From NCBI GenBank assembly GCA_001873365.1, contig MNYZ01000009.1:1-38856 (forward strand): a DNA stretch of 38,856 nt. Reading direction: 5' to 3'. This DNA comes from Oscillatoriales cyanobacterium CG2_30_40_61. Lineage in GTDB: Bacteria; Cyanobacteriota; Cyanobacteriia; Cyanobacteriales; Microcoleaceae. Under the pieces are notes generated by a model. That model saw nothing but the letters and a program-made list of their open reading frames with translations. It did no database searches and had not been told where the DNA came from. Shown one piece after another: positions 4,310 through 38,526 of the stretch; position 1 is the first letter of the stretch, and the number at the start of each line of letters is the position of its first letter. A program made the translations under genes and the position numbers.

Positions 4310-4336
4310 CCCATACTATCTACTGAATAAATATTT

Positions 4337-5143: not shown

Positions 5144-5144
5144 T

Positions 5145-5189
5145 GTAGTAAGCCCTTTAGGGCTGAATGAGGCGTGAACGCCTCACTAC
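5145..5189. repeat. Palindromic repeat, GTAGTAAGCCC...CACTAC family, copy 1
   Basis: A 45-bp element beginning 2 nt after the proC stop. Its ends GTAGT/ACTAC are complementary and enclose two hairpins, AGCCCTTTAGGGCT and GAGGCGTGAACGCCTC. Other copies: 9676-9717, 29463-29482 (half) and 31028-31072. Confidence 0.85.
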
Positions 5190-5210
5190 TTGGTTAATAT
5201 TAATTTTATT

Positions 5211-5378: not shown

Positions 5379-5437
5379 AATATTAGGATTTGGGGTAATA
5401 ATTACAACAGAAGATTGATTGATATTTGATCATGTTC

Positions 5438-5465
5438 GTAGGGGTGAGGCGCGCCTCACCCCTAC
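5438..5465. repeat. Perfect 28-bp palindrome
   Basis: GTAGGGGTGAGGCG is followed immediately by its exact reverse complement, with no loop spacer. It lies 4 nt beyond the stop of the minus-strand gene ending at 5470 and could act as its transcript end, but no T-tract follows on either strand. The GTAGGGG/CCCCTAC ends resemble the longer repeat at 21464-21524. Confidence 0.85.
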
Positions 5466-5469
5466 AGGT

Positions 5470-5949: not shown

Positions 5950-6047
5950 GGTTTTGTTCCTCGAAACGTTAATTTTTGCTGTTGCAGTTCTTTAGAATCA
6001 CTTCAGCTATAGTGATATTTTCGGAAATTTTAAGTTTAATTTGGTTG

Positions 6048-6143
6048 TAAAATGTAAGCACTTATTTGATGATATTTTTAGATTAAAAGTCAGAAAAGTA
6101 TTAAAATGTAATCCGAAGTTTTGTCACTAATTTTAAAATGTAA
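6048..6143. promoter_or_regulatory. Three exact TAAAATGTAA direct repeats between divergent genes
   Basis: The 10-mer TAAAATGTAA occurs at 6048-6057, 6102-6111 and 6134-6143, same orientation, spaced 54 and 32 bp, in the region between the gene starting at 5949 (minus) and the one at 6227 (plus). Repeated identical words in a divergent promoter region suggest operator sites, though AT-rich chance repeats are possible. No regulator is identified. Confidence 0.3.
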
Positions 6144-6192
6144 GAAAAAGTATGATCTTGGGATTAGGTAGGCAAAAAGACAAGTTTTTTAC

Positions 6193-6198
6193 TATAAT
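6193..6198 (+). promoter_or_regulatory. Consensus -10 box upstream of the vMAP-type pseudogene
   Basis: A perfect TATAAT lies about 30 bp before the ATG at 6227. No convincing -35 hexamer is present at the expected distance. A start near 6205 would leave a short leader with an AGG ribosome site. Confidence 0.4.
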
Positions 6199-6226
6199 AA
6201 AACTGAGGTGAATGAGGCAATTGGTG

Positions 6227-7214
6227 ATGAGTAACAATTCAAGGTTTACTTGGGATGAAGCAAAAATGATCGCTAATCAGATTCTTAAAGAAAAATATGG
6301 GTTGATGAATGAACTAGAAATTGCTATTCTTCAAGCCGTTTGGAATCATGAAGATTATAAAGATGTTGCGGGTAAAGAATTTAAGGATTATACTTATATA
6401 AGAGGAGTCGCCAGTGATTTGTGGAAAAAATTATCCGATATTTGGGGAGTAAAAGTAACTCGAACAAAAGTTATAAATGGTTTAGAACAGGAATGGTTGA
6501 AAAGTCAAAATACTAAATTTATTAGTGACGGGGGAGATAATAATTTAATTTTAGAATCTCCTGATGATGGGCCAGTTGGTTTAAATTCTGGGTTTTATGT
6601 GGTGCGGGGTTCTACGGAAACAGGTATTTCCTTATACTGAAACCGTTAATACTTTTGCCACTTTATTGCGAAGTTGGCATGAAGAATCGAAAAAAATGGA
6701 GATTTGGAAAAAGCTACGGATGGTTTTATTATATTCAACCAAGATTTATGTTAAATTACCTGATAAACAATCCCCTTTTAATGTCGGTGTTCCCGTAGAT
6801 TTAACAGAATTTAATTCTAAAGCGGTGCAAGATTTAGCGGTACGTCATCAGTTAAAATTAACAGAAAATCAAATTAATCAACTGATGACAATAATTGGGG
6901 GGTTTCCTTATTTGGTGCGGTTGGCATTTTACCGTTTAGCTCGTCAAGAGATTAGCTTTGAACAGTTATTAACAACAGCATCAAGGGATGATGGAATTTA
7001 TGGTCATTATTTAAGGAATCACTGGGCTGATTTACAAGATAATATAGAGTTAAAGATTGCATTTAAGGAGGTAATTATGTCAGACAATCCAGTTAAGTTT
7101 GAACAAATAGTAGAGTTTAAACTATTAGCAACTTCATTAGTTAAATATGAAGGTAATAGTTTGATTCCCAGTTGTCATTTATATCGAGATTATTTTAGAG
7201 AAAAATTCCTGTAG
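6227..7214 (+). pseudogene. vMAP-type HTH + AAA-like ATPase gene, broken by internal deletion and frameshift
   Basis: Residues from ATG 6227 (MSNNSRFTWDEAKMIANQIL) match the HTH domain that opens cyanobacterial vWA/MoxR-associated (vMAP) AAA-like proteins, leading into the family entry motif (GPVGLNSGFYVVRGSTET). The family would continue into the Walker A segment (RQMGKTSL type), but the frame hits TGA at 6638. An overlapping frame resumes near 6625 with VFPYTETVNTFATLLRSWHE, the later part of the same ATPase domain, and runs to 7214 ending LYRDYFREKFL. The Walker A and B regions are missing and the reading frame shifts at the junction near 6620-6626. The ATPase cannot be functional; the HTH part might still be expressed. 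Confidence 0.8.
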
Positions 7215-7274
7215 GGATCTATATATAATCTGTGTAAATTTTAGCCTAAAATCCATACTTGAACCGCTAGATTT

Positions 7275-7433
7275 GATCCCCCTAAATCCCCCTTCCCAAG
7301 GGGGACTTTGACTAACTATCTGGTTCCCCCTTAAAAAGCAGGACTTTGACTAACTATCCGGTTCCCCTCTCAAAAAGCAGGACTTTGACTAACTCTCCAG
7401 TTCCCCCCTTTTTAAGGGGGGTTAGGGGGGATC
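7275..7433. repeat. GATCCCCCTAA...TTAGGGGGGATC palindromic repeat array
   Basis: Part of the 371-bp gap between the pseudogene and the next ATPase. GATCCCCCTAAATCCCCC opens the array and an inverted GGGGTTAGGGGGGATC closes it. Inside, a unit of about 50 bp (GGACTTTGACTAACTATC, then GGTTCCCCC and A-rich sequence) is repeated three times with drift. It is the same family as the repeats at 9404, 20410-20761 and 24114. The rest of the gap (7434-7585) is AT-rich with no gene visible. Confidence 0.85.
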
Positions 7434-7585
7434 AACTAGGGAATAGGAACAAATTAATAGACCTGATCAAGACAGGTTTATAATAGTTAAGGGTGAGATT
7501 TATAACTTTTTTAAACCCGCACCTACAGAATTAAATATTGCTTTAATCTTGAAATATAAAATGATAAATTATGGAGGATTAAACG

Positions 7586-9637
7586 ATGAATTTTGAATAT
7601 CAAACGGGTGGAAGTTTAGAATATGAACATCCCAGTTATATTAAACGACAAGCGGATAAAGACCTGTATAACGCCTTGAAAGCTGGAGAATTTTGTTATG
7701 TATTGAATGCTCGACAAATGGGAAAATCGAGTTTACAAGTTCAAATTCTAAACCGTTTAGAAGTAGAAAAGGTGAAATGTGTTCCCATTGATTTAACCGA
7801 TATTGGCACAAATCTAACTCAAGATCAATGGTATTTTAGCCTAATTGAGCAGATAGTTAGGGTTTTAGAACTTGATGATCTCGATCATGAACAATGGTGG
7901 AATCATCGAAAATCTATCTCCAATAACCTGCGATTATCTCAATTTATTGAAGATGTCGTTTTAGTTCATATTCCTGATAAAATTGTTATTTTTCTCGATG
8001 AAATTGACACAACCTTAAAATTAGAACGGGATTTAACTGATAATTTTTTTGCCCTAATTCGGGTATTTTATAATAAGCGATCGCTCAACCCCAAATATAA
8101 ACGCTTAACCTTTTGTTTATTGGGAGTAGCTGCGGCTTCGGATTTAATGCCAGACCCTCTGACAACTCCTTTTAATATTGGCAGAGAAATTAATTTAAAA
8201 GGATTTAAAGATGAACATGAAGCCGAACGTTTAGCCGTCGGATTTGAGGAGATTTCTGAACAGCCTAAACAAATTTTAGCAGAAATTTTAAACTGGACAG
8301 GAGGGCAATCCTTTCTCACACAATTCTTTTGTCAGTTATTCGTTAAACAATGGCAAAATGGGGAGTGTACGGTTGAAGAAGTGGCAAATTATATTCTGGA
8401 AAATTGGGAAAATTTAGATGATCAATCCCATTTTAAAACCATTCAACATCGGCTTTTAGAAGAATATCATGAGCGCAAAAATGAACTCTTAGACCTGTAT
8501 CAGCAAATTTTACTCGCTCCCCATAAAAAAATATCGGCTCAAGATAGTCCTGATGAAATTAAATTGAGATTAACGGGATTAGTGGTTAAAGAAAACGGTC
8601 ATTTAAGGGTTTATAATCCCCTTTATGCCAATATTTTTAACCTTAAATGGCTGGAATCTCAACTGCCTCAGTTACGACCCTTTAATCAACAATATCAAAA
8701 TTGGTTAGCTTCTCAACGCCAAGATACAACCCAACTTTTAATAGGGGATGATTTAGAGGAAGCATTGCAATGGGCAAAACAGCAAAATCATTTAAGTTCG
8801 GTTTATATTGATTTCCTCAATGCTAGTCGAGACTATGACCGCCAACAACTCAAACAAGCTAAGGAAAAAGCGACAAAAATTATTCAACTAGCCCAAAAAG
8901 GAACCCAACTAGAACGAAAAGGAATACAAACCTTACGATTATTTAATATCACAACATATCAACCGCAAATCCTACGCGATGCTATACAAGCGGGGGAAGA
9001 CTTACAACAATTACAAGCAGAATGGCGAGAACTGGTTCAAGATGACCCCGAACTACTGAAACAGACCCCGGCGGCGAGTCCGGTTTTTACCCTACCAGAA
9101 ATCCTCAGTCATATTCGTCAATGGCATCAACTCACGGGTCATTCTTACGGGGTAAGGGCGGTGGCGTTTAGTCCGGGTGGGGAGTTTCTGGCGACGGCTT
9201 CGGGTGACAAGACCGCCAAACTGTGGAATTTACAGGGAGAGGCATTAACTACCTTCACGGGTCATTCTGACTTGGTAATGGCGGTGGCGTTTAGTCCGGG
9301 TGGGGAGTTTCTGGCGACGGCTTCCGATGACAACACCGTTAAAGTTTGGGATTTACAGGGGAATTTGTTAGCAGATTTTCGGGGATATAAGGGCAATTTA
9401 GTTGATCCCCCCCAGCCCCCCTTAAAAAGGGGGGAGAAAGATGATGCTTTAGAAAAAGGGGATAATCGTGATTTTATTGAGCTGAAAAGTCCGGTTAATA
9501 GTGTCTGTTTTAGTCCCGATGGTAAACAGATTGTTGCGGGTTATGGGGATGGAAAAGTGCGGTTTTGGCCGTTTGAGAGTTTGGCGGAATTAATCGCACG
9601 GGGGAAGGCGTGGTTAGGAGTTGAGGGAGGGAATTAA
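7586..9637 (+). CDS. AAA-like ATPase with C-terminal WD40 repeats
   Basis: A 683-residue STAND/AAA_35-like signalling or scaffold protein. The ATPase domain has a Walker A of family type (ARQMGKSSL, 42-50) and a Walker B (IVIFLDEID, 133-141), followed by the conserved GREINLKGF and WTGGQSFLTQFFCQL region. A charged linker (about 400-500) leads to WD40 repeats from about 511: two clean repeats (GHS...VAFSPGGEFLATAS...WNLQG/WDLQG) and a last one (VNSVCFSPDGKQ...VRFW). Between them residues about 605-634 are an insert encoded by the GATCCCCC repeat (DPPQPPLKRGE). Three blades are too few for a closed propeller, so it is probably truncated or oligomerises. GGAGG precedes ATG 7586. Confidence 0.88.
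   Translation: MNFEYQTGGSLEYEHPSYIKRQADKDLYNALKAGEFCYVLNARQMGKSSLQVQILNRLEVEKVKCVPIDLTDIGTNLTQDQWYFSLIEQIVRVLELDDLDHEQWWNHRKSISNNLRLSQFIEDVVLVHIPDKIVIFLDEIDTTLKLERDLTDNFFALIRVFYNKRSLNPKYKRLTFCLLGVAAASDLMPDPLTTPFNIGREINLKGFKDEHEAERLAVGFEEISEQPKQILAEILNWTGGQSFLTQFFCQLFVKQWQNGECTVEEVANYILENWENLDDQSHFKTIQHRLLEEYHERKNELLDLYQQILLAPHKKISAQDSPDEIKLRLTGLVVKENGHLRVYNPLYANIFNLKWLESQLPQLRPFNQQYQNWLASQRQDTTQLLIGDDLEEALQWAKQQNHLSSVYIDFLNASRDYDRQQLKQAKEKATKIIQLAQKGTQLERKGIQTLRLFNITTYQPQILRDAIQAGEDLQQLQAEWRELVQDDPELLKQTPAASPVFTLPEILSHIRQWHQLTGHSYGVRAVAFSPGGEFLATASGDKTAKLWNLQGEALTTFTGHSDLVMAVAFSPGGEFLATASDDNTVKVWDLQGNLLADFRGYKGNLVDPPQPPLKRGEKDDALEKGDNRDFIELKSPVNSVCFSPDGKQIVAGYGDGKVRFWPFESLAELIARGKAWLGVEGGN
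9404..9436. repeat. GATCCCCC palindromic repeat inside a WD40 coding region
   Basis: A copy of the dispersed palindrome (GATCCCCCCC, then CCCCCCTTAAAAAGGGGGG) lies in frame inside the gene at 7586-9637 and is translated as DPPQPPLKRGE. It matches the intergenic copies at 7275-7433, 20410-20761 and 24114-24148. Confidence 0.88.
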
Positions 9638-9675
9638 GGAATTGAAAATTATTGCCCAAATCAATTCCAGTTAGT

Positions 9676-9717
9676 GTAGTAAGCCCTTTAGGGCTGAATA
9701 CGTGAACGCCTCACTAC
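9676..9717. repeat. Palindromic repeat, GTAGTAAGCCC...CACTAC family, copy 2
   Basis: A 42-bp copy close to that after proC; even the preceding TTAGT matches. The second hairpin has lost part of one arm (ACGTGAACGCCTC). Its last bases overlap the stop codon of the minus-strand acyltransferase gene at 9714. Confidence 0.85.
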
Positions 9718-10736
9718 ATTTGATCATAAAAACGCTGTAAAAAATAGGATAAAATAATTAATAATGGCAGTCCTAAACAAATTAAAATAAATAGGATTAG
9801 ATTCTGATTGGCAATCTGTAATTTATTTTGCATAATTGATACCATCAAAAACCATAAGGGTCGATGGAATAAATACATACAATAGGAAGAATAGGCAATT
9901 AAATCAACTAATTTAGCTGATGGGACTCGATAGGAGAGAGAGTTACAAATTTTGTACATAAATAAAATAAATACCAATTGAATCATATTCACTAGAATAT
10001 AGGCGTAAAGGGGATTAATATTTTTTAAGCCATATTCTCGCAAGATAAAAAATGAGAGTAAAAACACAAAACCAAATATAATCGGAATAATTGGGTTAAT
10101 TTTTTGCCATAGTTGGGATTCAAAAAACAATGTTTCTGCTGAGAATATCCCAAATAAAAAAGTTAAATAATATAAGATTATTTTGAGATCGGTGATCTGG
10201 AAATACAGCTCCAAAGTTACTATTAATATCGGAAACAATAGGATTAAAAATATTTTGTAAATTGGTTTAATTGGTTGATGATTTAAAATCATAAATAAGC
10301 TATAATAAATTACAATTAACCCGACAAACCATAGGGTAGGTAAGGCGGAAAAATTTGCAGATACAAAAAATAACTGTAAACCCAAAATATGAATAATGAT
10401 AGAAACCGGGTCAAAAACCTGATACATATAGATAAAAGCGATTAAAGCTAGATAATAAAGCGGAAAAACTCTAATTATTTTTTTATATAAAAACTTCAGC
10501 AGTGACCTTGAGTTAAGAAAGCGTTGTCTTTTGTGATTAATTAAATAACCAGAAATAAAAACAAATAATCCTAAACTAAAATATCTATTTAATTCATAAA
10601 AAGACAATAAATTCATATCAATTTTATCTTGGTCTAAAATTTGTAAACCTAGATAATATTTCGGTAAATGATGAAGGAGAATCATGAAAATACCAACAGT
10701 TCTCATCCAATCAAAAACAACTAATCGATTTTCCAT
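9714..10736 (-). CDS. Membrane acyltransferase (acyltransferase family 3, OafA/WecH type)
   Basis: Family 3 acyltransferases are integral membrane proteins that move acyl groups (often acetyl) onto surface sugars or lipids. The start, RLVVFDWMRTVGIFMILLHH, carries the family's N-terminal signature of a small D/R-rich turn followed by a catalytic-type His in the first helix. FVFISGYLI follows, and about ten membrane segments fill the 340 residues to SYFLQRFYDQM. The acceptor cannot be told from sequence. It lies 30 bp downstream of the CheB/CheR hybrid kinase on the same strand, with heptamer-like repeats in the gap, so co-transcription is possible. Confidence 0.85.
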   Translation of the reverse strand: MENRLVVFDWMRTVGIFMILLHHLPKYYLGLQILDQDKIDMNLLSFYELNRYFSLGLFVFISGYLINHKRQRFLNSRSLLKFLYKKIIRVFPLYYLALIAFIYMYQVFDPVSIIIHILGLQLFFVSANFSALPTLWFVGLIVIYYSLFMILNHQPIKPIYKIFLILLFPILIVTLELYFQITDLKIILYYLTFLFGIFSAETLFFESQLWQKINPIIPIIFGFVFLLSFFILREYGLKNINPLYAYILVNMIQLVFILFMYKICNSLSYRVPSAKLVDLIAYSSYCMYLFHRPLWFLMVSIMQNKLQIANQNLILFILICLGLPLLIILSYFLQRFYDQM

Positions 10737-10760
10737 ATTTTTCTATAGCAATCCGCAGTA

Positions 10761-10802
10761 TTATCCCTATTCCCTATTCCGGTGTTCCCTTTTCCTATTC
10801 CC
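10761..10802. repeat. CTATTCC-type heptamer repeat tract, degenerate
   Basis: Units of CTATTCC with a GGTGTTCCC interruption lie between the acyltransferase and the hybrid kinase, overlapping the kinase gene's 3' end. The CTATTCCGGTGTTCC form recurs near 24380. Confidence 0.7.
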
Positions 10803-13800
10803 GACAATTTCCAAATATTTAGAAATAGCATTATTAAAATCTTCAATCATGATCGGTTTACTCAGATAATCATTCATCCCTATTTCTAAACATCTTTGAC
10901 GATCGCGCTCCAAAACATTAGCTGTTACCGCAATAATCCAGGGTTGGGTTTGGGAGGATTCACGAATTATTTTTGTCGTGGTTAAACCATCCATCTCTGG
11001 CATTTGCATATCCATTAATATTATATCATAGGATTGTTTTTTTAACATTTCTAATACTTCTAATCCGTTGTTAGCAATATCCGCATCATAGTTAAATAAT
11101 TTCAGGAGTAATAATCCAAATTCCTGATTAATCTCATCATCATCAGCAATCAAAATTTTTAATTGTGATTGATTTCCAAAGGTTTCTTGGTTAAGTAAAT
11201 TGGGATTTGTTTGTCTATTAATTTCAGTTTCAGAAGCTGTTTTTAATTGTAGGGTAAAATAAAAGGTTGAACCTTGGGTTTGAGGTTGTTCGGGATCTAG
11301 GAAAAAATCCGGGGGTGGATTTCCCCCAATCTTACCCATACTTACGACCCAAATTGTTCCCCCCATTAAATTTACTAAACTTTTACTAATTATTAACCCT
11401 AAACCCGTGCCCCCATATTTACGATTAATAGAGGTATCTGCTTGGGTAAAGGGTTGAAATAGATCGTTTATTTTATCGGGATTAATCCCAATTCCTTGAT
11501 CTTGAATCGAGATAATTAACTCATATTTTTCCTCAGAAATAGGTTGACCGATTACCTGAATAGAAACAGTGCTATCATGGGTAAATTTAACCGCATTTCC
11601 CACTAAATTTAAGAAGATTTGTCTCAATCGGTCACTGTCCCCTAAAAAACTATCGGGAATATCGGGATCAATCCCATAGGTGAGGTCAATTTTTTTATCT
11701 GAAATTTCTCTCTGGAGGAGGTCACAGACCGACTGAATTACAGTTTTAAAAACCAAAGGATGTTCTTCTAGTTCAAAATTCCCCGATTCAATTTTTGATA
11801 GGTTGAGAATATCATTAATAATAGTTAATAAAAGATTCCCGCTATCGCGAATTAGATCAACTAATTTTTTTTGTTCCGGGGAAAGATCGGTCATTAATAA
11901 AAGTTGAACAATTCCAATCACGCCATTCATGGGGGTACGAATTTCGTGACTCATATTAGCCAGAAAATCACCTTTAGCTTTAGTTCCGGCTTCCGCGCCT
12001 TCTTTGGCTGCGGATAGGGCGATTTCGGCTTGTTTGCGATCGCTAATATCTAACATTGTTCCATAAATATTTGTGATCTGGTGCTGTTGATTATAACCAG
12101 CCTTACCCATGGCATTAATATACCGAATTTCCCCATTATTGTAACGAATAATTTTGATATCTATATCATAACTAATCCCTTGGGTTTTGAGTTGTTCTAA
12201 AGCCTCTAAAAATCTAGCTTGATCTTCAACATGAACGCGAGTAATTAACTGGGATAAGGTGGGTTCTCCTAAATTAAAATCAACACCAATAATCTTAAAT
12301 AATTCCTTTGAACAGCGCATTTTTTGAGTCTGGAGATTCAATTCCCAATTTCCTAGATGGGAAATACTTTGAGCTTCTTCTAGGCGGTCTTTTGCTCTTT
12401 TTACCTCTTTTTGAATCTGTTTTTGTTCGGTAATTTCTATAATGACTCCCCCAACTCCAGACTGTTCATTTTCTAATAAAACCGGATAAAAACTACCGAT
12501 CCAATATCGGGTTTGTAAAAACACAGGGGTTAGGGTTTCAAATTCTAAATTGCTCAGGGTTTCACCAGTTTCTAAGACTTGACGCATCAACGGTTCATAA
12601 ATATTTGCCCATTCAGGGAATAACTGCTGTCCGGTTTTGCCAATATGTTCCGCTACGGAAAAATTATTAATCTTGGCGAAATTTTCATTAACTTTTACAA
12701 ATTTTAAATTTTCATCCAGTAAACATAATCCCACAGGACTATTAATATAAATATTGTCTAACCAATTATTACTAGCTTGGAGTTGATTTTGAATTTTTTT
12801 TAAATCATTAATATTGACAAAGGTAACAACTACTCCATCATTATGATTATTTTCCCCTTTATAGGTGTTGACGCGCATCAACAGTTGTTCCTGAGTTATT
12901 TGGTTGATAACTTCTAATTCTAAGGGAATTTGATTCACCACAAAATCCGATAAAATTTCAACTAAGTTAGGACAGTTTAAATTATGGGTAAAATGGGTTA
13001 AGGGGCGATTAATATCAGTGGGAAGAATATTAATAATACTGCTGGTGGTGGGGGTAAATTTTCTAATATTTAGATCATTATCCAGAAAAATTACTCCTAT
13101 ATTGGTACTGCGGAGTAAATTATCAATATCGTTAGTTAGTTCGGTGAGTTGTTGAATTTTAATTTGATGTTCCGAATTAACGGTATAAAGTTCTTCATTC
13201 ACCGACTGTAATTCTTCATTGGTACTTTGCAATTCTTCATTAGAAGCCAGTAATTCCTCATTGGTAGCCTGTTGTTCTTCATTGGTTGTTTCTAATTCTT
13301 CAATGGTCGCTTGTAAATTTTCTCGGGTTTGTTGCAGTTCATATTCTAATTCAGTGATTTGTTTGGCGGTTTCAATATTAACCTCAAACTCAATCGGATT
13401 AGATTTGTTTTCTAATGTTGTTTTTACCTCCAACAAAACTAACAAAAATTCATTTTTAATTGAGTATTTACCGGGAAATGCTATTTTTAAACTTAGGCTT
13501 TCATTTACCCCATTTCTAAATAAATTAATCCCCGTATACAGAACATTTTTTTGTTCTCGTTTAGCGCGATGAATAGCGGTTCTCAGGGGTAATTGTAAAG
13601 GAGTGGGAACCAGTTCTGTAATCTCTAATTTAGGCTTTCCTGTCGAAAAGGACAGCAAATCTGCACCATTATGAAAAATATGCAATAATTGGCAGTCTTG
13701 ATTGATTAATACACAGGTCAGATGTTGTTCTGAAAAACAAAGATTAAAAACTGAATCTAAAATTCTTTCATACTGAAACCCATTTCGATTAGTAGTGGGT

Positions 13801-15302
13801 AGTATGGCGACTTGAGTTAATGGAGTTAGCTGGGATAGGGGGATTAAACTCAGTTGAACTTCTCGATGTTTGCGGAAGATTTTATATCTTTGATTAATAT
13901 TAATAAATTCCGTTTCTATTTCTCCCAAGGTTTCGGCATTTCCCAAAAACAAAATCCCTTGGGAAGTTAAAGAAAAATGCAGTAACCGTAATACTTGTTG
14001 CTGAAGCACAGGCTGCATATAAATTAGCACATTTCGGCAACTAATCAAATTCATTTTAGAAAAACCCGCATTTTTAGTTAAATCATGGGGGGCAATAATT
14101 AACATCTCGCGTAAATGCCGTTTGACTTGATAGGAGTCGGCTTTATAGGTAAAATATTTGTCTAAACGTTCAGGACTAATATCATTTTTAATGCTTTCGT
14201 TATAAATTCCTTGAGATGCTACATCTAGCGCCTTACTATCAAGATCGGTGGCAAACATTTTGACGGTGATCTCTTTATTAGCTGCTTGAATTGCTTCATC
14301 AATTAATATGGCTAAGGTATAGGCTTCTTCTCCGGTAGCACAGGCGGGAACCCATACTCGGAGTTGTTCTTGGGGTACTAAAGAGTTGATTAACTCCGGT
14401 AAAACCTGGTGTTCTATAAAAGTCCAGGCGGGAGGATCTCTAAAGAATTGGGTAACACTAATTAATAAATCTTGACGGAGTAATTTTCTTTCGGTTTCTG
14501 ATTGATTTAATAAAACAATATACCGAGTTAAATCCGGGGATTGGGTGACACCACAACGATTCAGAATCCGACGACTCAGGGTACTAATTTTGTATTGACA
14601 AAAATCGATCTTTTCGTATTTGGATAAAATTCCTAGGATTTGTTCAAATTGTTCGACGGGAATTAAATCTGCTGCTTTGACCTGAGAAATCGGATAGTTA
14701 AGGGAATAGCCCACTAAACTATAAACCGCCTGGGCTAAATCCTGGGGGGATAAAATCCCATCCAAGCAATCACAAGGTATCACACTACTCGGCATACTTG
14801 TGAATTGGGCGGTTTCCGGGGATTGAACTAGGGTGATTCCGCCTTTTTGACTAATAGCTTGTAATCCTTCTGTACCATCGTTTCCAGTTCCCGATAGCAG
14901 GATTCCGATGACTTTTTCTCCCCATTCTGTGGCTAGGGATTTGAAGAAGATATCGATCGGATGATTCACCCGCTCAGAAGTATGTTCTTCTAATCTTAAG
15001 CAATCTTTTTCGACTGTTAAAGTATGACGCGGGGGCAATACATAGATATGATTAGGATGTAACTGTACCCCATCTTTTATCTGTTCAACTTGCATTGAGG
15101 TGCGTCTTTGAATTAATTCTGGCATCAAACTGGGAAAATCGGGAGAAAGATGTTGTAAAACTATAAAAGCTGCACCCGGATTATTTGGTAAATTGGTAAA
15201 AAATTCTTCTAAAGGTTGTAAACCTCCGGCCGACGCACCCATGGCTACCACAAAAAATGTTTCTGGCTGTTCCGGGCTATTATTCTGGGTGTTTTCTGTC
15301 AT
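10767..15302 (-). CDS. CheB-CheR-PAS-histidine kinase-receiver hybrid sensor
   Basis: A 1511-residue signalling protein fusing chemotaxis-type methylesterase and methyltransferase to a hybrid two-component kinase. Residues 15-200 are CheB-like, with the triad S24 (GASAGG), H51 (QHLSP) and D142 (GTGNDG) intact. Residues 220-480 are CheR-like with the SAM loop [12 protein letters not shown] (320-331) and SCRNVLIY (421-428). A Glu/Asn/Gln-rich coiled coil (about 644-730, many EEL repeats) leads to PAS domains. The kinase has H1119 in MSHEIRTP and ATP-binding motifs GNAVKFT and GGTGLGL. The receiver has D1431 in [11 protein letters not shown] and SKP near the end. No own receiver precedes CheB, so it is not the classical CheB layout. 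Ligand and output are unknown. Confidence 0.94.
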
Positions 15303-15542
15303 ATTATATTAGGGAAGGTAATTAAAAAGGATTGGTACGGGGCTTAGAGTTTTATTATTAATCGGGGAATTGCTAATAATTTGATTTTAAATAAACGCAA
15401 TTTTTACATTGAATAAACACTTTTGTCAATATATTTAATCTTTTCTTAGTTATTTTAGCCAGAATATTGTTTTTTTCCTTAAGTTACCAAAGATTCTACC
15501 AATTGAATATTCATATTAATTGCTCCTTACTTATACAAGACT

Positions 15543-16124
15543 TTAGAGAATATTTTTCAAATCTAATACAAATCCTGGTAAAATATTTTCTCCCGATAAA
15601 GATTGAGGAGATGAAATAATTTCTACGACTTGATTAGGGCGATAAATTTCCACACGCTGATGTTGTCTATCAAGCAACCATCCTAATTTTGTCCCGTTTT
15701 CTATATATTCTTGCATTTTTGCTTGTAGCTTTTCTAAGGAATCAGTTTTTGAGCGCAATTCGACCACAAAATCTGGAGATAGGGGAGCAAATTTTTCCTT
15801 TTCTGTTGTGGTTAAAACCTCCCATCTTTGGTTACTTACCCAAGCAGCATCGGGGGAGCGATTTGCACCATTAGGAAGTCTAAAACCCGTTGAAGAATCA
15901 AAGGCTAATCCTAAATTATTTTGACGACTCCAGCTTTGCAGTTGATAAGATAGATCAATATTCCGGTTGCCAGTTTCGCTACCCGTAGGGGGCATAATAG
16001 TTAAATCTCCCGATGCACTGCGTTCAAATCTCAAATCCCGGTTATTTTGACATAGCTGAAAAAACTGCTCCTCTGTTAGTTCAATAGTTAACTCAAAGGG
16101 TGTGGGTATTGTAGCAGTTTCCAT
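15543..16124 (-). CDS. Uma2-family (DUF820) restriction-endonuclease-fold protein
   Basis: Uma2 proteins have a PD-(D/E)xK nuclease fold and are strongly expanded in cyanobacteria; their role is unclear. Visible family features are the N-terminal LTEEQFFQLCQNN, ERSASGDLTIMPPTGSETG, the SPDAAWVS strand, the catalytic-type segment SPDFVVELRSKTD (ELRS-K in place of D/E-x-K) and the C-terminal LPGFVLDLKNIL. The length of 193 residues is normal and there is no sign of damage. It stands alone between the hybrid kinase and a small membrane protein, with AT-rich gaps of about 240 bp and 140 bp. Confidence 0.93.
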   Translation of the reverse strand: METATIPTPFELTIELTEEQFFQLCQNNRDLRFERSASGDLTIMPPTGSETGNRNIDLSYQLQSWSRQNNLGLAFDSSTGFRLPNGANRSPDAAWVSNQRWEVLTTTEKEKFAPLSPDFVVELRSKTDSLEKLQAKMQEYIENGTKLGWLLDRQHQRVEIYRPNQVVEIISSPQSLSGENILPGFVLDLKNIL

Positions 16125-16264
16125 GATTTTATCCTAATTAAGTTGGCTATAGTTCAATTATATCAAAATAATACAGACTACCTATTGCCTATTCTAAGAT
16201 TGAATATCGCCCATTCTCGATATCGCCCATTACCCACTACCTATTGATCATCGCTGATTAATAT

Positions 16265-16555
16265 TTAGCTAACAGAAAAGGTAATTAATAGCAGAATAAC
16301 AACCAACAAAACCGCTCCCGCCCCTAGGAAAATATATCGTTTTTGTTGTGTTGGTGAAGGATATTCGGAGGGGTAGACATCAGGCTCGACCGCAAAATTA
16401 TTGATCAGACCTTCATCATCTGTGGTATAACCATTTGCGGGGTCAATATCAGCAGATTGAGGATCATTTGCTGGAATTTCGGCGGGAGTGAGTTCGCTAC
16501 CGTCGCTGCGATGCTCTGGGTTGAGATTTTTCCCTGTTGTTTCGGAGTTGGTCAT
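16265..16555 (-). CDS. Small tail-anchored-like membrane protein (hypothetical)
   Basis: This 96-residue protein is Asp/Glu/Pro-rich for about 70 residues, then has one C-terminal membrane helix (about 73-94, IFLGAGAVLLVVILLLITF), preceded by a basic QQKR. The helix at the extreme C-terminus suggests the acidic domain faces the cytoplasm. I do not recognise a named family. Heptamer repeats lie 50 bp upstream. Confidence 0.7.
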   Translation of the reverse strand: MTNSETTGKNLNPEHRSDGSELTPAEIPANDPQSADIDPANGYTTDDEGLINNFAVEPDVYPSEYPSPTQQKRYIFLGAGAVLLVVILLLITFSVS

Positions 16556-16607
16556 GTTGCTTCTTATTAAATTTATGTTTATTATTATAACATATTTAAA
16601 GAAGAAA

Positions 16608-16649
16608 GGTAATAGGTAATAGGGAATAGGTAATAGGGAATAGGGAATA
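16608..16649. repeat. Heptamer tandem repeat (GGTAATA/GGGAATA), six units
   Basis: Six adjacent 7-bp units, the reverse-strand form of the CTATTCC/CTATTACC tracts elsewhere in the window, between divergent genes at 16555 and 16747. Confidence 0.9.
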
Positions 16650-16746
16650 CTTGGACTTCGCTCAGTAACAAGGGAATAGGGACAGTAATTCTGGCTGCTT
16701 GATATCCGATCCGGTATAATAGATTAACTCCATTTTAGGATTTTAA

Positions 16747-17091
16747 ATGAAAGCACAAGCCTATGATCGGATTAAAACATTAGTGGATATTCCCGCAGAT
16801 TTTGGCAAATCCCTAATTCCAAAAGGAACAATTGGAACAGTTATCGAATGTTATGAACGTCCTAAAGAGGGATATGCGGTTGACCTGACCATTCTTAGTG
16901 AAACTGGAGAATCGGGTTTTGAATATGAGAATGTAATTTTATATCCTGATCAGTTTTCTGTAGTTAATGATACCCCAGAAATGGGGAATTTTATTTCGGT
17001 TTTTGGTGATATTAGTTATGAAGTTCCCCAAGTGGTTCATGAACAATCAAACACCTCAGAAACCCCAGTAGAACAACCAAATCAGGAGTAG
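16747..17091 (+). CDS. DUF4926-like small protein
   Basis: A 114-residue soluble protein. Residues 1-70 resemble the DUF4926 fold: YDRIKTLVDIPADFGKSLIPKGTIGTVIECYERPKEGYAVDL is the typical 'robust start, glycine-turn, acidic' pattern of this family, often found beside toxin-antitoxin or Uma2-type genes. The C-terminal third is acidic and Gln/Glu/Pro-rich. No partner toxin is visible next to it. Function unknown. Confidence 0.7.
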   Translation: MKAQAYDRIKTLVDIPADFGKSLIPKGTIGTVIECYERPKEGYAVDLTILSETGESGFEYENVILYPDQFSVVNDTPEMGNFISVFGDISYEVPQVVHEQSNTSETPVEQPNQE

Positions 17092-17215
17092 TATAAAAGT
17101 CAAAGCACGCCGGGTTAAAATTTTAGCTAAAACTGTATCAAAATTATGCTATATTTCCCTAGGGAGTGTTTAAGAATATTCATTCTGTAGGGAAATTCTA
17201 GTTGTAATTAAAGTT

Positions 17216-18799
17216 ATGAAACGAATATTAAAATACAGTTTTATTCTATTTTTTGTTGGAATAATTTTAGCGATCGCCCCTCCCAGTTTGGGATTATTTA
17301 CCCCTGAATTTGATCTCAGAATTATCCATAGTAATGATCATCATGCCCACTTAGAACCCGTTACCGTTAACGATACGGAATTAGGAGGCATTGTCCGACG
17401 CAAAACCCTAATTGATCGCTTAAAAACCCAAAATCCCCGAGAAACTCTCCTCCTAGATGCGGGAGATATTTTCCAGGGAACTTTATATTTTAATCAATAT
17501 TTAGGTCAAGCGGATTTACCCTTTTATAATCAGATGAATTATCAAGCTGTCACCCTGGGAAACCATGAATTTGACCGAGGACAAACCGTTTTAGCTAATT
17601 TTATTAAAAAAGCCCAGTTTCCCATGCTTTCGGCTAATCTGGAAATCGCGCCTAATTCTCCCTTAGCAGGCTTAGTAAAACCTTGGGTAATTCTATCAGT
17701 TAAAGGCAAAAAAATTGGGGTATTTGGCTTAACTACAGAAGCCACAGCTAATATGTCGAGTCCCGGGGAAGGATTGGTTTTTACCGATGCTATTCAAGCG
17801 GCAAAACAAGCGGTATCGGAGTTAAAAAAACAAGGGGTGAATAAAATTATTGGATTAACCCATATTGGCTTAGAATCGGATTTACAACTAGGTAAAACTG
17901 TGAATGATATTGATATTATTATCGGGGGACATAGCCACACGCCGTTAGGTTCCATGCCCAATGCTAAACAACCCTATCCTATGGTGGAAACTACACCAAA
18001 TGGTCAGAAAGTTTTAGTAGTAACTTCTTGGGAATGGGGGAAATATTTAGGGGATTTACAAGTTAAATTTAATCGCAAAGGAGAAGTAACTTCTTGGCAA
18101 GGAACACCCCATGCTATTGATGATCAAATTCAACCGGATGCCAGTTTTTCCCAACAGTTAGAAAAATTTTCCGCTTCCCTAGAAGTCCTCCGCCAAACTA
18201 TTATTGGAAAAACCCTCACCCCCTTAGAAGGCAGTCGAGATTTAGTTAGAACTCAAGAAACTAATTTAGGGAATTTAATTACCGATGCCATGTTAAGTAA
18301 ATTAAGACCCGATGGTGCTGAAATTGCCCTATTAAATTCTGGAGGAATTCGCTCTAGTATTCCTACCGGAAATATTAGTGTTAGTCAAGTGATTGAAGTT
18401 ATGCCTTTTGGGAATACCATTGCTCGCTTAGATTTAACCGGAGAACAACTCAAACAAGCCTTAGAACATGGCGTCAGTCAAGTAGAATTAGGAGAGGGAA
18501 GATTCCCCCAAGTCTCAGGATTAAGGTTTATTTATGACCGAAAATCTCCGGCGGGTTCGCGGATTATTTCCGTTACCATTATTGATCAATCAGGACAAGA
18601 AAAACCCCTGGATTTAACCGCTACCTATCGAGTGGTTGCCAATAATTTTATGTCTATTGGGGGAGATGGTTATGAGGTGCTGAAATCGGGAAAAAATCAA
18701 GTTGACACCGGATTTTTATTAGCAGATGTGGTGATCGATTATATTAAACAGCAAGCCGAGATTAATGTAAAATCGGGCGATAGAATTATAGCTCAGTAA
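17216..18799 (+). CDS. Secreted 5'-nucleotidase/metallophosphatase
   Basis: A 527-residue two-domain enzyme of the UshA/5'-nucleotidase family that dephosphorylates nucleotides outside the cytoplasm, a phosphorus-scavenging role. A signal or anchor helix lies at about 5-24. The metallophosphoesterase domain shows the metal ligands in SNDHHAH (D41, H43), LDAGDIFQGT, LGNHEFDRG and GGHSHT. The C-terminal nucleotide-binding domain starts near 330 and has NLGNLITDAML, LNSGGIRSSIPTG and NNFMSIGGDGYEV. Length is standard. The stop codon lies in an 8-bp stem (18796-18803/18820-18827). Confidence 0.94.
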   Translation: MKRILKYSFILFFVGIILAIAPPSLGLFTPEFDLRIIHSNDHHAHLEPVTVNDTELGGIVRRKTLIDRLKTQNPRETLLLDAGDIFQGTLYFNQYLGQADLPFYNQMNYQAVTLGNHEFDRGQTVLANFIKKAQFPMLSANLEIAPNSPLAGLVKPWVILSVKGKKIGVFGLTTEATANMSSPGEGLVFTDAIQAAKQAVSELKKQGVNKIIGLTHIGLESDLQLGKTVNDIDIIIGGHSHTPLGSMPNAKQPYPMVETTPNGQKVLVVTSWEWGKYLGDLQVKFNRKGEVTSWQGTPHAIDDQIQPDASFSQQLEKFSASLEVLRQTIIGKTLTPLEGSRDLVRTQETNLGNLITDAMLSKLRPDGAEIALLNSGGIRSSIPTGNISVSQVIEVMPFGNTIARLDLTGEQLKQALEHGVSQVELGEGRFPQVSGLRFIYDRKSPAGSRIISVTIIDQSGQEKPLDLTATYRVVANNFMSIGGDGYEVLKSGKNQVDTGFLLADVVIDYIKQQAEINVKSGDRIIAQ

Positions 18800-32320: not shown

Positions 32321-32380
32321 GCAAATTACTGACCCTATATTCAAAACGAATTTTTTTGTTTTACCTCACTCAATAAAAAA

Positions 32381-33643
32381 ATGTTTAAAAAAATCACCCT
32401 AAAAAACTACAGAACTCATAAATCAACCACCCTGGAACTTCAGCCAATTACCCTACTAATCGGTAATAATAGTTCGGGTAAAACTAACTTTTTATCAGGA
32501 ATACAGCATTTTTCTGGGTTAATTAGACAGGGTAATCCTTTTAAAGAACAGGATCGAAGGGTTCAAGTCAAAGATTATTTTCCTCATCGCTATCGTTTAG
32601 CAAAGGATGATGATACTATGTCTATTGAAATTGAATGGAGTAAAAACAATAATTTTGTCAAGTATCAGATGGAGCTTTATCAAAATGAAAATTTTGCCGG
32701 AAAGGTTGGTTGTCGAGAAAAAATAGAGTTGAGTATTAATAATTTACAAAATCTGCAACCATTTACCAATGGTTATAAAAAAGAAACCGATTTAATTGAG
32801 CTTAGACTAAATATTGAAAAATCTCAAAAAGATGAAGAAAAAGAATTATTGAATTTATTTTTTAGAGATTGTGCTTATACTTTTGGTTACCATTTGCAAC
32901 CTTCTTTTTTAAAAGGTATTATTAATGACACTGCAAATTTTGATAATGCAAATTTTGATAATTGGATAAATCAAGAAATAAAAATCCCTTCATTTTTGGG
33001 TTATGAGGGAAAAAATTTACAAAAGCTTATTTATTATGTAAAAACTAAAGAAGAAAGAGTTTTTACTCGATTTTTAACGTTAATGAGACGTTTTGCAGAT
33101 AATAAAAACTTTCAAGGTATTCGTTATGATCAAAGAAATTCTAAATTGTTGTGGGAATTTGATTTAGGAAGAACAACAACAGATCGCTTAGTAGATGAGT
33201 TTCCCCCAGAGGTTATTTCTGATGGATTGCTAAAAGCAGCAGCGATCGCCTTATTACTTTCTATTAAAAACCCTCCTGCTTTAATGTTAATGGAAGAAAT
33301 TGAAAATGGCATTAATCCTGGCAATATTCAGGAGTTAATGCGATGGATTTGGCAAGCAACTGCTCCCAATCAAAAAGATATTACTCCCCAATTTATTTTA
33401 ACGTCTCATAGTCCTTCTGTTCTTCGAGAATTTCATAAAAATTTAGATTCAGTTTATACATTTCGATTAAATAAACGTACCTATCAAAGTGATGTAAGAA
33501 ACTTGAATCAAGCCTTGGATACTTTGATTGGAATTGGTGCTGTAGAGGGAGAAATTATTGAAGATGAAGCTACTGGAAAACGCTTAGTTGAAATTCCCCA
33601 ATATCAATTAGCGGAACTTTGGTATTCGGGGACTATTGGCTAA
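32381..33643 (+). CDS. OLD/AAA_21-like ATPase, possibly defence-related
   Basis: A 420-residue ABC/RecF-type ATPase. Walker A is LLIGNNSSGKTNF (25-37, consensus GNNSSGKT). Walker B with the switch glutamate region is ALMLMEEIENGINP (about 298-311), and ILTSHSPSVLREF (about 339-351) is the H-loop strand typical of OLD/AbiLi/AriA-type ATPases. The middle part is helical and divergent, without a zinc hook. Such ATPases sense phage or DNA ends and act with a nuclease partner in several systems. The next gene starts 37 bp downstream on the same strand and may be that partner. Function inferred from domain type and arrangement only. Confidence 0.87.
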   Translation: MFKKITLKNYRTHKSTTLELQPITLLIGNNSSGKTNFLSGIQHFSGLIRQGNPFKEQDRRVQVKDYFPHRYRLAKDDDTMSIEIEWSKNNNFVKYQMELYQNENFAGKVGCREKIELSINNLQNLQPFTNGYKKETDLIELRLNIEKSQKDEEKELLNLFFRDCAYTFGYHLQPSFLKGIINDTANFDNANFDNWINQEIKIPSFLGYEGKNLQKLIYYVKTKEERVFTRFLTLMRRFADNKNFQGIRYDQRNSKLLWEFDLGRTTTDRLVDEFPPEVISDGLLKAAAIALLLSIKNPPALMLMEEIENGINPGNIQELMRWIWQATAPNQKDITPQFILTSHSPSVLREFHKNLDSVYTFRLNKRTYQSDVRNLNQALDTLIGIGAVEGEIIEDEATGKRLVEIPQYQLAELWYSGTIG

Positions 33644-33680
33644 TACAACTAATCGAAGTAAATTCAAGGGATTTTGAGTA

Positions 33681-34403
33681 ATGGCACCTATCAAACGCAA
33701 TATTGGGATTATTGGAGATGGCCCTACTGATAGAATAATTTTTACTAAAATTGTGGAATGTATTTTAACAGAAGAAGATCCATCCAAGGAATTGATCGAC
33801 TGTAAGATCATAGAATTACAAAGGCAAAAAATCTTTGACTTTATACAAGAATATGTCAACGCAGAGAAAAAAAATTCATCTCCAAATCCCCAACATTTAG
33901 TCAAATCGGTAACTGGTGTGCTTAATAGTGGATTTAGAGAGTTGATCGACCAAGTTGACATCTGCAATTGCGATATTATTATTTTAACAACTGATTCAGA
34001 AACGGTATTAAAGATGCCTGATGATTATTTCAAATATGGGATTAAATTATTTCATATTTTATCAGAAGCAGCCATTAAGTTTTATGAAACACTTTTGTTA
34101 CAGGGTTATCCCCAGGATAATATTCCCCTGGTTTTACCAATTATTACTTTTCCATCCACAGAAATTTTAATTGCAGCAGCTAAGGGATTAAAAATAGCCG
34201 ATTATTATGATAAAATCCCTTTAGAGTTAAAACAGAAGATTTACGGTGTTCCCGATGATCGAACTGTTCCCTACGAAGATTTAAAAACTAAAGCTCTTGA
34301 TTATATTACACTTGAAGGAATAAAAAACATATATAAAAATATTCCCGAATCACGACATTTTATTCAAACCTTATCCGGTTATAAAGTATCCTGTTTTTTA
34401 TAG
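33681..34403 (+). CDS. Unknown protein, possible TOPRIM-like partner of the upstream ATPase
   Basis: A 240-residue protein that I cannot place in a named family. It begins RNIGIIGDGPTDRIIFTKI, a strand-turn-acid pattern (G-D-G-x-x-D) as at the start of TOPRIM domains, followed near 96-106 by CDIIILTTDSE, where TOPRIM would have its DxD. The middle has a Tyr/Phe-rich helix region and there are no membrane helices or signal. Because it directly follows the ATPase, it may be the effector of an OLD- or PARIS-like pair. The motif match is weak, and the function is inference. Confidence 0.75.
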   Translation: MAPIKRNIGIIGDGPTDRIIFTKIVECILTEEDPSKELIDCKIIELQRQKIFDFIQEYVNAEKKNSSPNPQHLVKSVTGVLNSGFRELIDQVDICNCDIIILTTDSETVLKMPDDYFKYGIKLFHILSEAAIKFYETLLLQGYPQDNIPLVLPIITFPSTEILIAAAKGLKIADYYDKIPLELKQKIYGVPDDRTVPYEDLKTKALDYITLEGIKNIYKNIPESRHFIQTLSGYKVSCFL

Positions 34404-34428
34404 CTTTTTCTGATTAATCTTCAAACTT

Positions 34429-34463
34429 GTAGGTTGAGCTTCCCCGCACTCAACCCAACCTAC
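34429..34463. repeat. TGTAGGTTG...CAACCTACA inverted repeat
   Basis: TGTAGGTTG and CAACCTACA arms enclose about 17 nt, between the convergent partner gene and moeA. It may help end both transcripts, though no clean T-run follows. Confidence 0.7.
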
Positions 34464-34503
34464 ATAAAATAAAAACCAACTCCTGGTAAACGTAGAAATC
34501 AAA

Positions 34504-36506: not shown

Positions 36507-37298
36507 ATGTGTCGTCTCTTAGCCTATCAAGGCTTACCAATTCAACTTGATCAAATTTTATTTCAACCCGAACACTCTCTAATTGTTCAGAGCTATCAAC
36601 CTCGTGAAATGACAGAAGCGCTTTTAAATGCCGATGGTTTTGGTTTAGGATGGTATCACAATAAACAGGAAACAGAACCCTTTATCTATCGAAATATACA
36701 ACCAATCTGGAGTGATATTAATTTACCTTATTTAAGTCGTTATATTGAATCGGGTCAAATTCTAGCCTATGTTCGTAGTGCTACGCCCGGTCAAGGAGTT
36801 AATTATAATAACTGTCAACCCTTTCGCTTTGAGAATTTATTATTGATTCATAATGGTTATATTCAAAATTTCCGTCACAGTCTTTATCGATTAATTCGTA
36901 ACCGTTTGTCCGATAAAATTTACCAATTTATTGATGGGACAACGGACTCCGAACATATTTTTGCCCTATTTTTAAATGAGTTATACTCCGACCCCACCCT
37001 CAACTTAGTAGCAGCCATCAAAAACACCTTAAAAATTGTGGCTGAATTAATAGGAAGCACGGGTATAAAAGCCCTAATTAATGTCATTATTAGTGACGGT
37101 CATCAAATGGTAGCCTCCCGTTTTGCCTTGGGAACTATTCCACCCACATTATATTGGTTGCAAAATCACCCAAATTTTCCCCAGGCTGTAATTATTGCAT
37201 CGGAACCCCTATTTCCGGCACAATGGAATACTTGTCCAGAACAAAGTATCATTACTTTAGGAGAAAACCTTGAGATCAACATCCAAAAACTCTGTTAA
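36507..37298 (+). CDS. egtC: EgtC, class II glutamine amidotransferase-type hydrolase
   Basis: EgtC removes glutamate from the gamma-glutamyl-hercynylcysteine sulfoxide intermediate in ergothioneine biosynthesis. The protein starts MCRLLAYQG, so Cys2 is the N-terminal nucleophile after Met removal. GFGLGWY, AYVRSATPGQGVNYNNCQPF and LLIHNGYIQNF are class II amidotransferase signatures, and the 263-residue length is normal. It overlaps the egtB start by 29 bp in another frame, which supports one operon. Confidence 0.9.
   Translation: MCRLLAYQGLPIQLDQILFQPEHSLIVQSYQPREMTEALLNADGFGLGWYHNKQETEPFIYRNIQPIWSDINLPYLSRYIESGQILAYVRSATPGQGVNYNNCQPFRFENLLLIHNGYIQNFRHSLYRLIRNRLSDKIYQFIDGTTDSEHIFALFLNELYSDPTLNLVAAIKNTLKIVAELIGSTGIKALINVIISDGHQMVASRFALGTIPPTLYWLQNHPNFPQAVIIASEPLFPAQWNTCPEQSIITLGENLEINIQKLC
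37259..37272 (+). promoter_or_regulatory. egtB: Ribosome binding site that fixes a TTG start of egtB
   Basis: AGGAG (37259-37263) lies 6 nt before TTG 37270, a strong spacing, inside the end of egtC. It supports the TTG as start, although no ATG is available earlier in that frame. Confidence 0.7.
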
Positions 37299-38526
37299 AG
37301 AAAGTCTTAAACAATCTTTTAATCAATGTCGTCAAGGCACACTGAAACTTTTTGAAAATATTGATGATGTCACCTTTCGCGCCCAACCCCATCCCGACTA
37401 TAGCCCTATTGGTTGGCACCTGGGGCATATTGCTTACACCGAAGCCTATTGGTTATTAGAAAAATGTGCCGGATTTGCACCCCTATTTCCTGAGTATGAT
37501 CAACTATTTAATGCTAACGGATTACCCAAAGCAGAACGGGTTAATTTGCCACCTTTAGAAGTAATTTATCATTATTTAGAAACCGTTCGTTCCCAAGTCA
37601 ACCAATATTTAGAAAATGCTCCCTTAGAAAAAGAGCACCGTCTTTGGAAGTTTCTCTTACAACATGAAAGTCAACATAGCGAAACTATTGTTTTTGTTTT
37701 GCAGCTACAAAAGTTAATTACACTAAATCAATCCATCCATCCTCATCCCAACTTTAACCGCCCCATATCTGAACTTAGTCCATCTCCCACAATGATTCAG
37801 ATTCCTGCCGGAGAATTTATCATGGGGAGCAACGCCATAGACGGCTTAGATAATGAAAAACCCGCCCATCACCACTATTTAGAAACCTATTCCATTGACC
37901 GTTATCCGGTTACCTGTGGACAATACCGAGAATTTATTCAAGCCCAGGGTTATCAAAATCCTCAATGGTGGTCAACTCAAGGTTGGCAATGGTTACAACA
38001 AAACCCAGTTAACCAACCCCTCTATTGGTCGGATGAATCTATATATAGTCATCATCCTGTTTGTGGGGTAAGTTGGTATGAAGCCCAAGCCTATTGTAAC
38101 TTCGTCGGCCAGCGATTACCCACCGAGGCAGAATGGGAAAAAGCAGCCTCTTGGAATCCCTCTACTCAAACCCAACATTTCTATCCTTGGGGCGAAGCAG
38201 AACCCAGTCCAGAATTATGTAATTGTGATCAAGTCCAACTATGCACCACCCCAGTAAATTTCTATCCCGATAGTGTCAGTCCCTACGGTTTATATGACAT
38301 CCTCGGTAACGTTTGGGAGTGGACAGCCACTTGGTTTAACCGCTACGAAGGATTTCAGCCCTATCCCTACACAGGATATTCACAAATTTACTTTGATGGT
38401 CAACACCGAGTTCTCAAAGGTGGAAGTTGTGGAACCCGCCCCTGGGCTATGCGGTCTAGCTTCCGCAATTGGTATCACCCCCATGTCCGACAAATTTTTG
38501 CTGGATTTCGTTGTGCGTCCACTTAA
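37270..38526 (+). CDS. egtB: EgtB, iron-dependent sulfoxide synthase of ergothioneine synthesis
   Basis: EgtB joins a thiol (gamma-glutamylcysteine or cysteine) to hercynine using iron and oxygen. The DinB-like N-terminal domain has H50 in IGWHLGH and the HX3HXE motif HESQHSE (H132, H136), the three-His iron site. The C-terminal formylglycine-generating/sulfatase-type domain (about 176-418) has IPAGEFIMGSNAIDG, RLPTEAEWEKAA, DILGNVWEWTATWF, RVLKGGSCGTRPW and AGFRCAST. The 418-residue length is normal. The methyltransferase EgtD is not in the window. Confidence 0.93.
   Translation: MRSTSKNSVKESLKQSFNQCRQGTLKLFENIDDVTFRAQPHPDYSPIGWHLGHIAYTEAYWLLEKCAGFAPLFPEYDQLFNANGLPKAERVNLPPLEVIYHYLETVRSQVNQYLENAPLEKEHRLWKFLLQHESQHSETIVFVLQLQKLITLNQSIHPHPNFNRPISELSPSPTMIQIPAGEFIMGSNAIDGLDNEKPAHHHYLETYSIDRYPVTCGQYREFIQAQGYQNPQWWSTQGWQWLQQNPVNQPLYWSDESIYSHHPVCGVSWYEAQAYCNFVGQRLPTEAEWEKAASWNPSTQTQHFYPWGEAEPSPELCNCDQVQLCTTPVNFYPDSVSPYGLYDILGNVWEWTATWFNRYEGFQPYPYTGYSQIYFDGQHRVLKGGSCGTRPWAMRSSFRNWYHPHVRQIFAGFRCAST

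Follow-up and report, generated by a model that had tools for sequence, protein, structure and literature searches.

The window, that is the whole stretch of 38,856 nucleotides analysed here, carries an ATPase ORF followed by a partner ORF, both on the forward strand and separated by a gap of 37 bp. This is where an earlier note on the same DNA, made from the sequence alone, had placed the two genes. The features of the pair, with their positions in the window, are as follows.

32381..33643, + strand: ATPase gene, 420 aa, AAA_21/AAA_15 (OLD/RecF/SMC-type ABC ATPase); proposed sensor and restrainer
32462..32485, + strand: Walker A, GNNSSGKT, ATPase aa 28-35; G28, N29, N30, S32, G33 and K34 invariant in 12/12 rows
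32555..33055, + strand: variable central segment, ATPase about aa 59-225; proposed recognition region
33218..33226, + strand: S-D-G motif, ATPase aa 280-282; S280, D281 and G282 invariant in 12/12 rows
33290..33310, + strand: Walker B, MEEIENG, ATPase aa 304-310; E305, E306, I307, E308, N309 and G310 invariant in 12/12 rows
33398..33415, + strand: H-loop, LTSHSP, ATPase aa 340-345; H343 in 11/12 rows, Tyr in genome G157
33681..34403, + strand: partner gene, 240 aa, no Pfam or NCBIfam match at E<=1; proposed TOPRIM-like effector
33714..33731, + strand: GDGPTD, partner aa 12-17; G12, D13, G14, T16 and D17 in 11/11 rows; aligns with EGxTD of PDC-M31B
33972..34001, + strand: DIIILTTDSE, partner aa 98-107; D98, T103, D105 and E107 in 11/11 rows; D105 and E107 align with both Asp of IDTD
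34152..34163, + strand: PSTE, partner aa 158-161; P158, S159 and E161 in 11/11 rows
about 32358..34485, no strand assigned: inserted unit between an hli-like ORF and moeA, from alignment with four congeners; borders accurate to some tens of bases

Conservation of the ATPase was read from a 12-row alignment in which one row is truncated, and that of the partner from 11 rows, one of them truncated downstream of the scored residues. The ATPase matches Pfam AAA_21 at 4e-21 (76.8 bits against a cut-off of 27), AAA_15 at 3.5e-14 and SMC_N at 1.9e-10. With its motifs conserved as well, it is of the OLD/AAA_21 type that the earlier note had recognised from the Walker A, Walker B and H-loop. The S-D-G motif at aa 280-282 we take to be signature-like. 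In the partner, the GDGPTD and DIIILTTDSE motifs that the same note had picked out are both present. Full-length homologues keep the motifs down to 44% identity for the partner and 51% for the ATPase, and this retention in distant homologues, together with the AAA_21 match, shows that the motifs of the two proteins are not due to chance.

Linkage and distribution of the two genes

Of the 386 genomes sampled from the phylum, 11 have a match to the partner (E<=0.001), and a search for the ATPase (E<=1e-30) picks out exactly these genomes. The two genes are adjacent and in the same order, which contradicts the possibility raised in the earlier note that homologues of the two are rarely neighbours. 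An ATPase profile search at E<=1e-15, with up to six candidates scored per genome, recovered only the same 11 among 292 genomes. That sample, and another used with the partner profile, overlap with the 386 genomes and are not independent of them. Two weak matches of the partner profile (E 0.001 and 0.007) lie inside open frames of more than 1100 aa and were taken as chance. Within the sample, every member of the ATPase subfamily that was seen is accompanied by the partner or by remnants of it. There is a twelfth copy of the pair on plasmid p1 of Planktothrix pseudagardhii; the plasmid search returned one record matching the partner, and the same record matches the ATPase. Searching genome contigs with the partner returned one locus, that of G262 (L002). 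No relatives of the partner were found in the phages or in the viral contigs searched, nor were any of the ATPase in the viral contigs searched.

Both genes are open over their full length in nine genome copies and in the plasmid copy, and the intergenic gap ranges from 6 to 37 bp over the nine loci measured (G074, with an uncertain start codon, was left out). Both are broken in G149. In G155, an assembly of 1110 contigs, an intact ATPase is found with an internally deleted partner (locus L035, G155:C745:1-9000, 1266-2953), a kind of remnant found in none of the other ten genome copies. That only the partner was lost fits a partner that is the harmful part of the pair, albeit in one case.

Insertion, mobility and the Hma context

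Upstream of the pair in the window are an Fe-S protein gene, which we take to be sdhB-like, and then a short ORF that is presumably hli-like; downstream lies moeA on the opposite strand. The inserted unit is slightly wider than the two ORFs, at ~2.1 kb. An empty site was found in G403, G400, G255 and G411, each having the sdhB-like gene, the hli-like ORF, moeA and a short spacer with neither pair gene. Ten genomes of the window's genus were covered: three carry the pair, one (73% complete) has no sdhB match, and the site was read in the other six, being empty in four, with moeA outside the stretch in the remaining two. In G255, the only one of these six to be searched genome-wide, the pair is absent from the whole genome too. 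Within this genus, then, the pair sits at the hli/moeA site as a discrete insertion.

Across all copies the pair occupies at least six neighbourhoods. Three genomes of the window's genus have it at hli/moeA, and four have it downstream of mfd (TRCF), as identified with Pfam in G127 and by size and position in the other three. In G284 it lies alongside aminotransferase and XPB/DUF790 genes, in G074 between FMO-like and MurJ genes, and in G149 alongside chemotaxis-like genes, as it also does in G155, judged by gene sizes. This range of neighbourhoods, together with the insertion and its empty sites, shows that the pair is mobile. At three of the four mfd-type loci a 1280-aa protein is encoded downstream of the pair (L028 11812-15654, L030 11731-15573 and L031 12566-16408), and for that of L028 neither Pfam nor PADLOC gives a match at 1e-5. 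The fourth, L033 in G103, has a transposase ORF (DDE_Tnp_1, 12081-17722) in its place.

Other window ORFs were scanned with Pfam (three, and a further ten) and with PADLOC (ten, of which three are among the Pfam ten and one is among the Pfam three). Among those scanned, most named ORFs are housekeeping or regulatory, and no PADLOC defence system lies beside the pair. The only strong PADLOC match among them is a TnpB/Cas12f-like ORF of 406 aa at 1029-2249 on the minus strand (Cas12u4, 1.7e-58), 30 kb from the pair, which is most likely a transposon TnpB. At 36507-38526 there is a class-II glutamine amidotransferase gene followed by one for a DinB_2/FGE-sulfatase protein; the two presumably resemble an EgtC/EgtB pair.

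Mostly housekeeping surroundings would also suit a cellular role outside defence, for example in chromosome maintenance or cell-cycle control. The archaeal OLD ATPase Cran1 offers a precedent, reported in PMC12796447, and by profile the nearest solved structures to our ATPase are Rad50 ATPases, over 40 residues. The patchy presence of the pair (11/386), the empty sites within one genus and the plasmid copy inside Hma all speak against such a role, which we consider improbable.

On the plasmid the gene order is HmaA helicase, ATPase, partner, HmaB methylase, a 194-aa protein and HmaC ATPase, the best PADLOC E-values being 4e-157 for HmaA, 5e-127 for HmaB and 1e-125 for HmaC. HmaC also occurs in five of the 11 pair-bearing genomes, always away from the pair, and only the plasmid copy sits at an HmaC locus. 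The Hma loci of three of these five genomes (G000, G157 and G245) were read and contain no relatives of the pair. Two of the three have another ORF in the hmaA-hmaB interval, and the third is without one. The locus in G000, the window's own genome, has relatives of HmaA, HmaB and HmaC and lacks the pair (L109, G000:C55:40000-59900, 5420-15623). The ORF between hmaA and hmaB in G157 encodes 96 aa (L110, 8272-8562), and we take it to be of a HigA-like antitoxin type; that in G245 encodes 360 aa (L111, 10581-11663). PMC12988326 and PMC12255303 mention defence genes that are embedded in Hma, and PMC8565338 the Hma system itself. The Hma embedding, in one copy of twelve, supports a defence role for the pair, which adds one more case of a gene pair found both alone and as Hma cargo.

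The partner and its relation to known systems

The canonical TOPRIM acidic set consists of a Glu followed, further on, by a DxD motif. The earlier note had called the partner reminiscent of TOPRIM, and of this the part that stands is a distant similarity to PDC-M31B and DUF4276 proteins; the canonical set is not what the partner has, since D13 takes the place of the Glu and D105xE107 that of DxD. PADLOC assigns the window partner to PDC-M31B at E 0.0015, over aa 6-33 only. Nine of the 11 partner rows match this model at E<=1 (best 9e-4) and no other PADLOC model matches them at that level. Two further PADLOC models for PDC-M31B, run on the window's own genome, gave no match to the partner there at E<=1. 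Searched over the phylum, the first model found matches in 6 of 194 genomes. The window's own genome also has an ATPase and DUF4276-like pair of PDC-M31 type (L062, G000:C113:19500-29500, ORFs 3860-5020 and 5023-5694), which is more canonical than the window pair, has the same gene order and lies downstream of a 1224-aa ORF. DUF4276 of Pfam, which we take to be TOPRIM-like, is matched below the cut-off by two of three PDC-M31B-type proteins, at 1.6e-5 (the G000:C113 protein) and 3.1e-4.

Aligned with the PDC-M31B group, the partner shows 15-19% identity and a colinear series of motifs (GDGxTD/EGxTD, DSE/DTD, STE/SIE and PESRxFIQ/NPSxKxFIE), from which single rows depart, L057 among them. The local profile-profile score against six PDC-M31B sequences was 27.7, a value that none of 100 column shuffles reached (best 24.5) and that compares with 15.2 for the reversed profile. 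The global score of 20.0 was reached by two of 100 shuffles, one of them an outlier (128.8). An HMM of the six sequences, run with a search space of 10,000, found the window partner at E 0.05 and the best row at 0.0075; in the opposite direction the lowest E was 8.6, and a first hhalign run gave 7.7% probability, at the C-terminus. Most of the similarity lies in about 30 N-terminal residues. From these comparisons, homology of the partner to PDC-M31B is likely but not proven.

On this alignment we propose GDGPTD as the counterpart of the TOPRIM E-G motif, with Asp13 replacing Glu, DIIILTTDSE as that of the D-x-D strand, in the form D-x-E, and PSTE as that of SIEC(W) in PDC-M31B proteins, whose Glu is retained in four of five PDC-M31B-type rows and absent in L057. 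Where the partner has D13-G and DSE, the PDC-M31B rows show EG and DTD. A HAD-type motif (GDGxND) was also considered for GDGPTD and was dropped on account of the N-terminal position and the alignment with EGxTD. In AF2 modelling the partner reached a mean pLDDT of 50.7 and a pTM of 0.53, and the ATPase a mean pLDDT of 33.8. The low-confidence partner model would place strands at 7-11, 97-104 and 150-155, just ahead of the acidic residues, which would be compatible with the proposed counterparts, and two structure searches with it returned no TOPRIM chain among the matches listed.

The altered acidic set, with Asp replacing the first Glu and DxE replacing DxD, might instead mark a catalytically dead TOPRIM-like domain acting as regulator or adaptor of the ATPase. 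Constraint on the partner is loose among congeners (dN/dS 0.52-0.65 among three), as would suit this explanation. Against the plasmid copy, dN/dS is 0.18-0.20, which indicates purifying selection over the longer term, and D13, D105, E107 and E161, identical in 11/11 rows, could still bind metal. We think it improbable that the partner is dead. Alternatively, the partner could be a toxin of another fold, such as a nucleotidyltransferase-like one, with the ATPase as its regulator in a toxin-antitoxin type pair. The partner belongs to no Pfam family, G155 has kept the ATPase and lost the partner, and a Pfam scan of four partner homologues gave one sub-threshold SMODS match (E 0.22). This SMODS match, however, comes from one of five partner sequences and is far below the cut-off; a match to the unrelated ADSL_C in another homologue (0.17) is equally weak and sub-threshold, and PDC-M31B is matched by 9/11 rows. 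We give the toxin-antitoxin explanation a slim chance.

The earlier note had found no clear match for the partner among named systems, and the profile searches agree with it. Among the closest is PDC-M31, a PADLOC candidate defence system seen here as an AAA ATPase plus a DUF4276-like protein, in which the ATPase gene likewise precedes a smaller one, there of TOPRIM type, with acidic motifs colinear with those of the partner. It differs in that the partner has Asp for Glu and DxE for DxD, the partners are 15-19% identical as given above, and the ATPases are 20% identical over 372 columns; moreover, of three models for PDC-M31B that were applied, one matches the window partner, and only in part. 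This partial match and the different acidic set are why we did not file the pair as PDC-M31. PARIS (AriA/AriB; class 4 OLD) resembles the pair in that an ATPase and a nuclease-like protein are encoded by two genes lying next to each other. Our ATPase has its best PADLOC match in AriA (7e-27), but over the same span as the generic AAA_21. None of the 11 partner rows matches a PADLOC model for AriB at E<=1, a search that very remote homology could escape, and the pair was therefore not filed as PARIS. AbiL (AbiLi and AbiLii) is similar in that AbiLi models match the ATPase (best 7.5e-17); at E<=1 none of the 11 rows matches AbiLii/RloB in PADLOC, and Pfam shows no RloB in the window partner or in four homologues. 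The Hma-embedded candidate HEC-01 shares an ATPase matched by HEC-01A (best 1.9e-21) and, with the plasmid copy, the embedding in Hma. Unlike HEC-01, the partner rows match PDC-M31B only, and the window copy stands alone. The literature searched yielded nothing on PDC-M31, on HEC-01 or on DUF4276 together with toprim, and no experimental work on the ATPase-partner pair.

Gabija and the single-gene OLD nucleases have an OLD-type ATPase as well, and a TOPRIM-type nuclease of the kind we propose for the pair. According to PMC10568477, OLD proteins combine an ABC ATPase with TOPRIM and cut DNA, the TOPRIM domain of OLD and Gabija being within the ATPase protein and Gabija having a helicase partner. 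The Pfam matches of our 420-aa ATPase include no TOPRIM family. The pair, as a split version, could be a stable complex after the manner of OLD or Gabija, acting directly on incoming DNA by degrading or nicking it and releasing no cell-stopping effector. Helicases do neighbour it elsewhere (mfd in G127, an XPB-type gene in G284 and HmaA on the plasmid). They differ from each other, however, and none adjoins the pair in the window, where the neighbours are the Fe-S protein and MoeA. A DNA nuclease complex of this sort seems unlikely to us, if less so than the other alternatives. All of these explanations overlap with the one that we prefer and with each other, and their likelihoods are not exclusive and need not sum to one.

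The ATPase central segment and a proposed mechanism

In 90-column steps the DNA of the unit is 82-100% identical to the copies in G262 and G157, and at 32561-33139 this falls to 55-83% with gaps. Synonymous divergence follows the same pattern. Between the window and G262, dS is 0.82 over aa 59-225 of the ATPase, as against 0.08 over aa 1-58 and 0.22 over aa 226-420; the corresponding values for G157 are 0.70, 0.21 and 0.25. Compared with the plasmid copy, dS is 0.69-0.89 in all three parts. Since dS is raised mostly in the middle alone, it looks as if the middle of the window's ATPase allele was exchanged by a segment from another allele. Positive selection on the middle was considered and rejected: dN/dS there is 0.25-0.47 in the three comparisons that involve the window allele, and dS is raised too, which allele exchange explains better. 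Between G262 and G157 the middle has a dN/dS of 1.11, on a very small dS of 0.052. The central segment may be the region with which the ATPase recognises its cue.

We hypothesise that the pair is a compact, mobile two-gene anti-phage system, made of a split OLD-type sensor ATPase and a TOPRIM-like nuclease effector, and judge this to be probable. We infer the TOPRIM fold, the nuclease activity, the sensor role and the defence phenotype. The model for it is PARIS, in which, as PMC12409363 reports, phage proteins are sensed by a hexamer of AriA that keeps AriB bound and then lets it go to cut tRNA. By analogy, our best reading is that the pair works in a similar way even though the partner matches no AriB model. 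The ATPase would hold the partner inactive before any trigger and would sense a cue of infection, probably by way of the variable central segment; this cue would most likely be a phage protein. The trigger would set off ATP-dependent state changes by which the partner is freed or switched on. The partner, as a putative metal-dependent TOPRIM-like nuclease with D13, D105, E107 and E161 as its acidic set, would then cleave nucleic acid, perhaps tRNA or DNA, and so stop the infected cell.

More tentatively, and with rather more doubt than confidence, the pair might be a distinct split OLD-type module in which the TOPRIM metal site has been rebuilt (Asp for Glu, DxE for DxD) and the central recognition segment is swapped between ATPase alleles by recombination, the effector and the catalytic ends being conserved. 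The copies seen so far come from two families within a single cyanobacterial order and from one plasmid of Planktothrix. To our knowledge, few systems of this kind have been tested in relatives of Planktothrix. If our reading is true, the OLD/PARIS group would gain, in these organisms, a split module of ATPase and TOPRIM protein whose acidic site departs from the standard one. Moreover, an ATPase whose middle is exchanged next to an effector that is conserved would, if true, give a direct handle on what the sensor recognises.
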